From: Candidatus Gastranaerophilales bacterium
GTDB lineage: Bacteria; Cyanobacteriota; Vampirovibrionia; Gastranaerophilales; Gastranaerophilaceae
Reading direction: 5' to 3'
Length of the DNA stretch: 34,493 bases
Assembly: GCA_944325655.1 (NCBI GenBank)
Contig: CALVAW010000018.1
Coordinates: 1 to 34,493, forward strand
Part shown: positions 24,477-28,578 of the stretch, piece after piece
Position numbering within the stretch: position 1 is the first letter of the stretch
How the letters are laid out: each line of letters opens with the position of its first letter
The notes under the pieces: model-generated
Told to the model about the DNA's origin: nothing
What the model saw: only the letters and a program-made list of their open reading frames with translations
The model's database searches: none
Made by a program: the position numbers and the translations under genes

Positions 24477-25049
24477 ATGAAATTTATTTTAGCAAGTGCT
24501 TCTCCAAGAAGAAAAGAAATATTATTAAATGCAGGTTATAAATTTACGGTTGTTCCGTCTTGTTACAATGAAAAGATTTGTAATATGGAATATTCTGAGG
24601 AATTGGTTGAAAATTGTGCATTTCAAAAAGCTTTAGAAGTTAAAAACAGATTAAAAAACGGTTCTTTGATTGTTTCTGCTGATACTGTTGTTGTTATAGA
24701 AAATAAGATTTTAGGTAAGCCTAGCAATGAAGCAGAAGCATTTGATATGCTATCCAAGCTCTCCGGTGCTACTCATTTTGTTGCAACTTCAATATGTATT
24801 TTAGATAATTACAATATTGTTAAAGGAATTGAAAGCACAAAGGTTATTTTCAGGGATGTTTCATCTTTTGAAATTAAAAATTATATTAAAAAGAATATGC
24901 CCTATGATAAAGCAGGCAGTTACGGCATCCAAGATAAGGATTTTGATTTTGTTAAAAAAATAGAAGGCAATATTGATAATGTTATCGGTTTTCCAATGAC
25001 ATTATTTAAGAGGCTGTCTAAAGAAATTTTTAATAATTTTAGTGTCTAA
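24477..25049 (+). CDS. maf: Maf-family nucleoside triphosphate pyrophosphatase
   Basis: A 190-residue house-cleaning enzyme that hydrolyses non-canonical or methylated nucleoside triphosphates to monophosphates. It has the N-terminal phosphate-binding motif ILASASPRRKEILLNAG, then SADTVVVIENKILGKP with the metal-binding Asp, the AFDMLSKLSGATHFV helix, and the C-terminal DKAGSYGIQD block with the catalytic-site residues. The frame is open upstream to 24432, but that region is the tsf terminator and the ATG at 24477 gives the family N-terminus. No ribosome-binding site is visible between the terminator and this ATG. Its TAA overlaps the stop codon of the convergent gene. Confidence 0.92.
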   Translation: MKFILASASPRRKEILLNAGYKFTVVPSCYNEKICNMEYSEELVENCAFQKALEVKNRLKNGSLIVSADTVVVIENKILGKPSNEAEAFDMLSKLSGATHFVATSICILDNYNIVKGIESTKVIFRDVSSFEIKNYIKKNMPYDKAGSYGIQDKDFDFVKKIEGNIDNVIGFPMTLFKRLSKEIFNNFSV

Positions 25050-26041
25050 CTAAATATTGAAAATAAACCTTCTGTATTTCCTATTTTATCGTTGAATATA
25101 TGTATTTCTTCTAATAGTCTGTCAGTAATACATTCTGCTATAATTAAGTGATTACTTCCCGTTGTATCAAACATTAATTGAAATGTTTCATATAAAATTG
25201 AATTAAATGCACTGTTTTGTTTTGACATTATTGCTATATGCTTTATGCCGTTTTGGATTAATTTTTTTATGGTTTCTTCATCATGCATAAGATTATTTTG
25301 ATACAAGATGATATATGGCATATCTAATCTTACACATCTGAATTGAAGATTTTGATCCGGATTTACGTTCAATTTTTCAAGATATCTGTAATGATCAGGC
25401 ATCTTTGGACAGTTTTGTATGCAAGGCTGATTAATAAGAATTTCCAGTCTTGAAATATCATCTATATATTCATGATGATATGGAAGAATATTTTTTGAAT
25501 ATTCCGGTCTTACAACAACTATATCGTATTCTTTTAATAATTTATTATAAAAATTTGTTTCATTTTCTATTGTAGGCTCTTCTATTTTGTCGGGCCCCTG
25601 AAAACGAAAACTTGCCTTTATTGCAGGTGATATAACTGTTGCATTTGGATTTTTTTCTTTTATATAGTCTCTTAAAATTTCTGAAAATACCATGAATCTT
25701 GAATTATATTCAAATGCTGTTTCCAGAATAAAATTTGCGTATTTATCCTTTAAATCTTCTTTTGTGATTGAACTTGAAGCAAAATTTAGAGTCGGGGTTG
25801 TATCAAATTCTTTTAGATAATTAAAAAGATTTCTAAGGGTTTCTTGTTTAAATTCGCCGTACACCCCTGGAATTTGACCTCCTGCCCATATATTAGACAT
25901 TGTTCCGTATAAGTTGACTTTTGGTATTGGTAGGCTAAATCTTTTTATTGTTTTACATATTGCAGGCCACAGGGCATCGTATTGAAATAATAAATTTAAA
26001 TCCCACTCTACATTTTCGTATTTATTTAATTTGTTTGTCAT
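25046..26041 (-). CDS. Unknown protein, paralog B (PCIQNCP/HY motif)
   Basis: A 331-residue cytosolic protein with no signal peptide or membrane helix. The alternation of strands and helices and the Cys pair in QPCIQNCPKMPDHYRYLE (about 207-224) suggest an alpha/beta barrel-like enzyme, and the general look recalls U32 collagenase-like peptidases, but this is a weak resemblance and I do not recognise a family. Residues 99-227 are nearly identical to the neighbouring paralog (about 11 differences in 129 positions by eye), while the N- and C-terminal parts have diverged. AAGGA lies about 11 bases before the ATG. It is the last gene of the run starting at 30789, and its stop overlaps that of maf. 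Confidence 0.6.
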   Translation of the reverse strand: MTNKLNKYENVEWDLNLLFQYDALWPAICKTIKRFSLPIPKVNLYGTMSNIWAGGQIPGVYGEFKQETLRNLFNYLKEFDTTPTLNFASSSITKEDLKDKYANFILETAFEYNSRFMVFSEILRDYIKEKNPNATVISPAIKASFRFQGPDKIEEPTIENETNFYNKLLKEYDIVVVRPEYSKNILPYHHEYIDDISRLEILINQPCIQNCPKMPDHYRYLEKLNVNPDQNLQFRCVRLDMPYIILYQNNLMHDEETIKKLIQNGIKHIAIMSKQNSAFNSILYETFQLMFDTTGSNHLIIAECITDRLLEEIHIFNDKIGNTEGLFSIFS

Positions 26042-26056
26042 TTTATTTTATTCCTT

Positions 26057-27055
26057 TTAAATAAAAGGTGATGTTATATCTTTTTGTTCGCCGATTAATT
26101 GACTGAAATTATAAGCTTCATGGTTTAGATTTTCTTCCATGGCACTTATTATTATTTGGTTGTTACCGTCTCTGTTAAACATTTGATCAGCAAGAAGTAG
26201 TAATAAGTCGCTTAAAGTTGTGGGCGTGCTTCTTCCTTGTAGTTTTAAATGTTTTACTCCCAGTTTAACTAATTTTTCTACTGTTTCTTGATTATGTATT
26301 AAATTATTTTCGTATAATACAGTATTTAATATACCGCTTCTGATGCAAGAAAAACGAGTATTTCTATTATGATTTACGTTCAATTTTTCCAGATATCTGT
26401 AATGATCAGGCATCTTTGGACAGTTTTGTATGCAAGGCTGATTAATAAGAACTTCCAGTCTTGAAATATCATCTATATATTCATGATGAAAAGGAAGAAT
26501 ATTTTTCGAATATTCCGGTCTCACAACAACTATATCGTATTCTTTTAATAATTTATTATAATAATTTGTTTCATTTTCTATTGTAGGCTCTTCTATTTTA
26601 TCAGGCCCTTGAAAACGGCAGCTTGCTTTTATAACCGAAGCAATAATGGTTGCATTTGGATTTTTTTCTTTTATATAGTCTCTTAAAAGTTCTGAATATA
26701 CTATAAATCTTGAATTATATTCAAATGCTGTTTCCAGAATAAAATTTGCATATTTATCCTTTAAATTTTCTTTTGTAATAACTGTTGATGTAAATGTGAA
26801 AGTAGGTGATGCATTTAATTCTGTTACATATCTAAACCACTTATCCAAAACTTCTTTTTTAAAATTGCCGTACAGTGCAGGCATTCTCCCGCCTGTCCAT
26901 ATAATTGAAGGAGAACCAAAAAGATTTGCCTTTGGCGGCGTTATATCATACATTTTTAAAGTATTATAAATTGCTCCCCAAACCGAGTCATATTGAAAAA
27001 GCAAAGGAAGCGTCCAAATAACATTATTATATTTAAATAGATTTTTAGTTGTCAT
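26057..27055 (-). CDS. Unknown protein, paralog A (PCIQNCP/HY motif)
   Basis: A 332-residue paralog of the next gene, with the same layout: an N-terminal domain with a YxNVxW...LLFQYD stretch, a strongly shared block at residues 100-228 containing EYDIVVVRPEYSKNILP and QPCIQNCPKMPDHYRYLE, and a diverged C-terminal domain. The two Cys, with the following His-Tyr, may bind metal or an Fe-S cluster (inference). The gene starts five bases after the SecA-like gene and ends 15 bases before its copy, so the three are almost certainly co-transcribed. No catalytic motif is recognised; a U32-peptidase-like barrel is one possibility. Confidence 0.6.
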   Translation of the reverse strand: MTTKNLFKYNNVIWTLPLLFQYDSVWGAIYNTLKMYDITPPKANLFGSPSIIWTGGRMPALYGNFKKEVLDKWFRYVTELNASPTFTFTSTVITKENLKDKYANFILETAFEYNSRFIVYSELLRDYIKEKNPNATIIASVIKASCRFQGPDKIEEPTIENETNYYNKLLKEYDIVVVRPEYSKNILPFHHEYIDDISRLEVLINQPCIQNCPKMPDHYRYLEKLNVNHNRNTRFSCIRSGILNTVLYENNLIHNQETVEKLVKLGVKHLKLQGRSTPTTLSDLLLLLADQMFNRDGNNQIIISAMEENLNHEAYNFSQLIGEQKDITSPFI

Positions 27056-27060
27056 ATTTG

Positions 27061-28578
27061 TTACTCGCTTTTAATAGTATATTCTATAAATTTATTTTTT
27101 TCCAATACAATTTTTTTTAGTAAAAATCTTCTAAGATAAAACGTATATAAGGATATAATTTTAAACAGGTTTTCATTGTTTTTATCCATCGGTGTATGAA
27201 CAATAGATAATTTGTCTATATTAAATTTTTTAAAAAGTTCGTCTTCTGGGCAGTTGTAGGTTATTATATTTTCCTTGGGGAGATAATTCCTGTAATTATT
27301 TATGGTGAGATATTCGTTTTTTAATTCGGAATATTTTGATGTGAAAATTAAAAATAAACTGTTGTTTTTGATAATGTTTTCAGCGTTTTTAGCTGCTATT
27401 TCTTTTTGTTTTTTTAATTCGGATTTTAATTTTTCTTTGTAAAAGTTCGTATTTTTTCCTATTTTATATGCTTCTGTTATATTTTTTGCAATATATTCAT
27501 AGTCGCCCCCAATTTCGGGTTTAACATATATACTCATCATATTTGTTAAAATCGTAACTTTTTTTTCGGTCAGCATTTTGGATATGATTTTTTTATTTGA
27601 TATTTTAAAATCTTTAACAATATCGTATTTTATTTTGTTTGAGTTTAATGAATTTATAAGATTTTTTAGATCTTTATCATCATTTGCGTCAACTATTATT
27701 GTTTTATTTTCGGATAATAATGTTTTTATTTGTTGCGCGATGTTTTTGATTTTTTCGTTTTTATTTATGTAATATAAATTTTTAATGTTTTTGAGATTGT
27801 TTAATATTTCATTTTTATTTACAGTATTTTCAATTTTTAAATTGTATTTTTTTCCGAGTGAAGGTTTTTCAAAAAGTAATTCCGGAGATACTCCAAGAAT
27901 ATTTTTGTATAATTTAAAAAAGTCTTTTAATTTTATTTCATTTTTCTTCAGATTGTGTCCCTTGATTTTAAATATGTATTCATCTCTGTCAAATAGAATA
28001 TTGTCTATATCAAAAATGAATGCCGTTTCAAATTTAAAATCAATTCTGTCGGCAATTTTTTCGATATTTATGTTTGCAATGTAATCATAAAGCAATTCTT
28101 CGAGATTTGTAAAAATGATATTACTTTTATAAATGTCTTTTTTTGACTTTAAAACAAAATTATCGTCGAGCATATCATTGGGATTGAGATTAATTTCAGC
28201 TTTTATATCAAAAAAATCGTATATTGGTTTTAAGCTCTTGTAATAATTTGATAAAAGATATCTGTTAAAAAATATGATATGAGGTTTTAACATTTTTTTA
28301 TATGTAAAAATGCTGTATAACACAAATGCATACTTAATTTCCTCATTGTTATTGATATTAAGACTAATTCCCGAAAGAAATTTTTTAAAATTTTTTATAT
28401 CTTCTTTTGTTAATGTGTAATTTAATTTTCTTTTTATGCCTTCTTTAATTATAGAAATAAAATGCGGCAAGCTAAATTTTTTGTTATTTATGTCGATATT
28501 TTTAAATTGACTTTTTAATTCTTCGTCCGATAAAGAATTGTACTTTAAATTTGAATTTGTAAATGCTTGTTTAATCAT
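27061..28578 (-). CDS. Degenerate SecA-like protein lacking ATPase motifs and the PPXD
   Basis: A 505-residue Lys/Asn/Ile-rich protein whose landmarks run in the order of SecA. LSDEELKSQF (16-25) matches the SecA N-terminus LSDEEL. PHFISIIKEGIKRKLNY (38-54) matches PEAFAVVREASKRV. FFNRYL...LKPIYDFFDIKAEIN (103-130) matches TVNDYL...RPLFEFLGLTVGIN. FIFDIDNIL (187-195) takes the place of VDEVDSIL. FFKLYKNILGVS (220-231) matches YFRLYEKLAGMT. VTILTNMM...IGG (341-358) matches VTIATNMAGRGTDIVLGG. The Walker A (GEGKT) is replaced by NNNEEI near 76-81, and motif VI (QLRGRSGRQGD) by TINNYRNYLPKEN near 425-437. The preprotein cross-linking domain is missing between about 200 and 217, and the C-terminal scaffold is very short. 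An inactive structural paralog is the best reading. Confidence 0.75.
   Translation of the reverse strand: MIKQAFTNSNLKYNSLSDEELKSQFKNIDINNKKFSLPHFISIIKEGIKRKLNYTLTKEDIKNFKKFLSGISLNINNNEEIKYAFVLYSIFTYKKMLKPHIIFFNRYLLSNYYKSLKPIYDFFDIKAEINLNPNDMLDDNFVLKSKKDIYKSNIIFTNLEELLYDYIANINIEKIADRIDFKFETAFIFDIDNILFDRDEYIFKIKGHNLKKNEIKLKDFFKLYKNILGVSPELLFEKPSLGKKYNLKIENTVNKNEILNNLKNIKNLYYINKNEKIKNIAQQIKTLLSENKTIIVDANDDKDLKNLINSLNSNKIKYDIVKDFKISNKKIISKMLTEKKVTILTNMMSIYVKPEIGGDYEYIAKNITEAYKIGKNTNFYKEKLKSELKKQKEIAAKNAENIIKNNSLFLIFTSKYSELKNEYLTINNYRNYLPKENIITYNCPEDELFKKFNIDKLSIVHTPMDKNNENLFKIISLYTFYLRRFLLKKIVLEKNKFIEYTIKSE

Follow-up and report, generated by a model that had tools for sequence, protein, structure and literature searches.

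The window, that is, the whole stretch of 34,493 nt analysed here (contig CALVAW010000018.1 of a Candidatus Gastranaerophilales bacterium), carries a tandem pair of paralogous genes, A and B, next to a relative of SecA. The features of the locus are as follows:

25046..26041, minus strand: gene A, 331 aa, U32-like TIM barrel, the maf-proximal copy (open reading frame; AlphaFold2 model; orthologs in genomes G001 and G004)
25361..25765, minus strand: converted core tract in A, matching B codons ~94–228 (codon-level border list, sliding identity)
26057..27055, minus strand: gene B, 332 aa, U32-like TIM barrel (open reading frame; AlphaFold2 model; orthologs in G001 and G004)
26372..26776, minus strand: converted core tract in B, codons ~94–228 (codon-level border list, sliding identity)
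26420..26434, minus strand: invariant cysteine loop of B, C208-x3-C212 (CIQNC), followed by H218 (34 family rows)
27061..28578, minus strand: 505-aa degenerate paralogue of SecA without Walker A, lying 5 bp upstream of B (Pfam/NCBIfam, alignment with true SecA, co-occurrence)

Over their full length A and B are 60% identical. In the core (129 codons), nucleotide identity rises to 92.8% and amino acid identity to 91.5%, and 11 of 129 residues differ; recounting on a codon alignment reproduced exactly this number and the coordinates given in the initial annotation, whose span for A (25361–25747) is contained within the tract delimited here (25361..25765). Per 20-codon block, nucleotide difference amounted to 30–43% upstream of codon 100, 2–15% in codons 101–220 and 33–57% past codon 220, confirming the strong divergence of the termini (30–57% per block overall). 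Synonymous sites of the core, also claimed to be nearly identical, followed suit: by NG86, dN and dS were 0.036 and 0.27 in the 129-codon core, 0.40 and 1.6 in the N-terminal part and 0.68 and 1.3 in the C-terminal part (dS of the ends overall 1.3–1.9). Sliding-window identity and synonymous divergence were thus neither uniform along the genes nor equal between core and ends. Where both proteins have the same amino acid, the codons were identical at 102/115 core positions versus 43/78 in the ends (Fisher p = 1.8e-7). In a GENECONV-type check, comparing the longest identical run with 2000 permutations of the polymorphic sites, 0/2000 permutations matched the window pair over all sites, and 80/2000 with silent sites only.

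We compared the window genome (G000) with its sister species G001 and G004, all genomes compared in this work being metagenome assemblies (MAGs). In both sister species the same locus holds the two genes, A and B, in the order seen in the window. Within genomes, the A and B cores were 99.5% (G001) and 96.6% (G004) identical at the nucleotide level, with a dS of 0.01 and 0.08, respectively, while the ends of the three pairs reached 52–67%. Between species, orthologs were 78–87% identical in the core (dS 0.75–2.0) and 64–78% in the ends. Against the sister-species ortholog, the cores of G001 and G004 reached 86–87% identity; their ends showed 54–67% identity to the paralogue versus 67–78% to the ortholog. 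Likewise, the protein ends of A were 53–69% identical to A of other species versus 31–54% to B of their own genome.

Codon choice at residues shared by the compared proteins followed the same division. Identical codons were found at 126/126 core versus 53/96 end positions in the G001 pair and at 122/123 versus 56/88 in the G004 pair, and in each of the three pairs compared within a genome, core and ends contrasted strongly (p between 2e-19 and 2e-7). Ortholog comparisons among these species displayed little or no such contrast (p 0.02–0.5), with 63–84 of ~101–116 core codons identical. For both the G001 and the G004 pair, the longest identical run was matched in 0/2000 permutations, over all sites and silent sites alike. 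Inside a delimited tract, paralogues are therefore closer to each other than orthologs are, silent sites included, as characterizes ectopic gene conversion. Outside it, the ends track orthology, and both genes are syntenic in G000, G001 and G004, which is the pattern of a duplication that predates the species split.

Phylogenetic trees agreed with these comparisons. In the core tree, A grouped with B inside G001 (support 100) and inside G004 (support 90), and the G000 pair was set apart with support 100. The end trees split the sequences into A-type and B-type; owing to saturated silent sites, several of their nodes had modest to weak support. Core variants specific to one species occurred in both its A and its B copy. 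Both cores were slightly nearer to B-type relatives, a difference too small to indicate the direction of copying.

A list of every differing codon delimited the tracts. In G001 the tract spans codons 92–227 with zero differences inside, in G004 codons 93–220 with a single silent difference, and in the window codons ~94–228 with 25 differing codons, which we read as marks of an older conversion event. The left border, at codon 92–93, agrees to one or two codons across the three species, and the right border falls at codon 220, 227 or 228. A shorter tract was detected in G003, at codons 146–159; it was significant over all sites (0/2000 permutations) but not with silent sites alone.

Recurrent partial gene conversion accounts, with high confidence, for the like cores and unlike ends of A and B. 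As the ends follow orthology and the cores match within each genome, the duplication is older than the species and the core was recopied in each lineage. The alignments and trees show that A and B are old tandem paralogues, duplicated before the compared species split, and that core homogenization is species-specific, with borders in common.

The initial annotation had left the choice between gene conversion and strong core constraint. The orthologous pairs uphold the former. In principle, A and B could be kept similar with no copying at all if strong purifying selection acted on the protein sequence and codons of the core, and among orthologs the core is indeed the slower-changing part of the protein (dN 0.05–0.11 versus 0.12–0.37 in the ends). 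However, silent positions are homogenized within genomes (126/126 and 122/123) and not between orthologs (63–84 of ~101–116), so that protein-level constraint is not the main cause, and the species-specific variants shared by A and B of one genome argue against it as well. Constraint by itself is therefore highly improbable and refuted as the sole cause; it may act alongside conversion.

Similar cores and dissimilar ends would likewise be expected if the genes had duplicated recently in each species and their ends had then been replaced or had undergone diversifying evolution. This scenario is extremely unlikely, since the A ends resemble the A of other species more than their own B, the gene order of the locus is constant in three species, and dS in the ends is high or saturated. 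Finally, an assembler might have placed one core in both genes. That all genomes are MAGs, and that two contigs of G021 break inside the core with an exact overlap of 127 bases, would favor such an artefact, but the 25 codons that differ inside the window tract speak against a collapsed repeat, and three separate assemblies yielded the same pattern with different sequences and nearly equal borders. We consider this explanation very unlikely.

Under recurrent conversion, a homology island of ~130 codons is recopied between A and B in each lineage by ectopic gene conversion through homologous recombination, and the ends, now too diverged to recombine, go on diverging under purifying selection. 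The borders would perpetuate themselves, since only the core would still be a substrate for recombination, which needs near-identical sequence. Copying may be tolerated or favored if the half-barrel of strands 4–7 and the C-x3-C loop is required in A and B alike, with strands 1–3, strand 8 and the C-terminal helices presumably serving the individual role of each copy. The process has a precedent in the essential bacterial release factors RF1 and RF2, paralogues converted only in the part of shared function while the specificity parts stay distinct, with two independent cases in distant lineages (PMC4530459). In contrast, A and B are tandem genes of an uncharacterized protein family, and their copying recurred between the same borders in sister species. 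With three sister species, one locus and one left border, they document naturally occurring partial conversion in bacteria with unusual clarity, the diverged ends serving as an internal control.

To place the variable parts on the protein, as the initial annotation had proposed, we predicted structures with AlphaFold2 (mean pLDDT 94.5 for B and 93.8 for A). Realignment with VIA-align ranked the U32 protein Mk0906 (5d88) first for both models (B: Z 14.7, rmsd 3.7, 218 aligned residues; A: Z 15.5, rmsd 3.5, 217 aligned residues), 4–5 Z units above the next entry (10.5–10.7), all remaining TIM barrels scoring Z ≤10.7. On these predicted models, A and B are thus U32-type TIM barrels; Foldseek alone put other TIM barrels on top, and U32 was singled out only by the realignment. 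The copied tract begins immediately past strand 3 and takes in strands 4–7 plus the helix of the C-x3-C loop, which make up the second half of the barrel, and the diverged parts comprise strands 1–3, strand 8 and the C-terminal helices. The suggested anatomy of specificity domains flanking a catalytic core does not apply, as each protein is a single TIM barrel. From TIM-barrel topology, the diverged parts should lie side by side in the closed barrel. A fixed half for putative catalysis and a diverged half for putative specificity or pairing is plausible, and the tract would indicate the half of a TIM barrel that two paralogues must or may share, a prediction on their division of labor.

Sequence searches in Pfam, NCBIfam and the PDB returned no convincing match for A or B. 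The Pfam cut-off of Peptidase_U32 (PF01136; TrhP, RlhA, Mk0906) was not reached, with no match for A and 12.3 bits for B versus a gathering threshold of 22.4. By hhalign, the family profile matched ordinary U32 proteins of the lineage with a probability of 88% over 203 columns; the window genome itself carries two such genes besides A and B. In this comparison the LEVLINQPC strand of the family aligned with LEMFVHGAQC of the ordinary-U32 consensus, and the GVKHLKLQGR strand resembles GIDSFKVEGR of U32. E201 and C208, the motif glutamate and first cysteine, align with the Glu and Cys that are essential in TrhP (PMC6599085). Three cysteines (C208, C212 and C237) were kept in 34/34 family rows and H218 in 30/34; the copied tract holds two of the three, C237 falling outside. 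The motif, C208-x3-C212-x24-C237, is shorter than and different from the four-cysteine motif of U32, CX6CX15CX3C (PMC6747719, PMC11574389), and the family lacks the wider form of that motif, CX6CX15CX3/4C, as well. We therefore class the family as U32-related and, by its motif, not as a member of U32, and with three invariant cysteines in place of the usual four, an iron-sulfur cluster and catalysis remain putative.

The gene upstream of B, probably on the same transcript, encodes a SecA paralogue which, aligned with true SecA, lacks Walker A and the preprotein cross-linking domain and has an altered Walker B region. It is under purifying selection (dN 0.22–0.30, dS 0.9–1.6). Within the genus it was seen only beside the U32-like array, in 7/12 array-bearing genomes and 0/16 others (p 0.0007, indicative only, as related genomes were treated as independent). 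In another genus, a distant A/B relative likewise follows a SecA-like gene (L039). The G003 copy retains the C-terminal CPCGSGKKYKNCCG zinc motif.

Regarding function, we infer that a UbiU/UbiV-like iron-sulfur heterodimer is the likeliest role, and tentatively propose that A and B form an anaerobic U32-type enzyme of this kind. UbiU and UbiV (E. coli yhbU-yhbV, Peptidase_U32; 331 and 292 aa) are adjacent paralogues that form an active heterodimer with conserved cysteines and one [4Fe-4S] cluster each, needed for oxygen-independent hydroxylation (PMC6747719). A distinct and persistent U32-related tandem pair in an anaerobic gut lineage would fit this model. Unlike UbiU-UbiV, the putative A-B heterodimer has no above-cut-off Pfam match, no ubiT neighbor and a CX3C...C pattern in place of CX6CX16CX38C and CXnCX12CX3C. 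Alternatively, A and B could be non-enzymatic binding or scaffold proteins that partner the ATPase-less SecA-like protein, for example on a secreted or modified substrate. This is favored by the SecA-like gene directly upstream in seven array genomes and by the one next to a distant relative outside the genus, but the invariant cysteines, the match of E201 and C208 to TrhP-essential residues and the lack of the gene in 5/12 array genomes speak against it, and we regard a scaffold role as unlikely. More speculative still is an undescribed anaerobic modification or export-linked module, composed of a U32-derived pair with a new three-cysteine site and an ATPase-dead SecA relative, in which conversion would actively keep half of both barrels identical for pairing or a shared catalytic face. 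In any case, the locus points to an uncharacterized U32-related family in gut Gastranaerophilales that is tied to an ATPase-less relative of SecA.

A copy-number survey of related genomes, as the initial annotation had advised, found the family in 12/28 genomes of the genus with one to three copies each; wherever the contig shows the location, most often maf lies on one side and an ABC transporter gene on the other. A triplet in G008 showed no significant conversion tract, and an older pair in G009 gave no significant run and only a weak silent-site contrast. In G021, two contigs (start of L034, end of L040) stop inside the U32-like core, where they share the exact overlap of 127 bases, a typical result of assembling across a repeat; this genome was left out of the conversion count because one gene and two are indistinguishable.

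No A/B relatives were found in IMG/VR (single-sequence and profile searches) or in plasmids, and the best match in BFVD, an E. coli phage 'peptidase', was by fold only. Residues 199–283 of B (26057–27055) weakly match the phage family phrog_1458 of unknown function; the homologue in G003 matches it better (E 4.5e-7). Two records from human faeces labelled 'Bacteriophage sp.', MT836355 and MT836087, hold a distant relative with the C-x3-C...HY...C motif (L084 9674–10588 and L085 2624–3541). A viral origin was rejected. Both records contain polA and ABC transporters among other genes of chromosomal type, and resemble fragments of bacterial chromosomes. Further distant relatives adjoin or overlap radical SAM/SPASM and TupA-like ATP-grasp genes (L066 3683–9141, L076 4650–6975, L077 2102–6951), possible peptide or glycan modification clusters, and L066 also holds a second U32-like protein.
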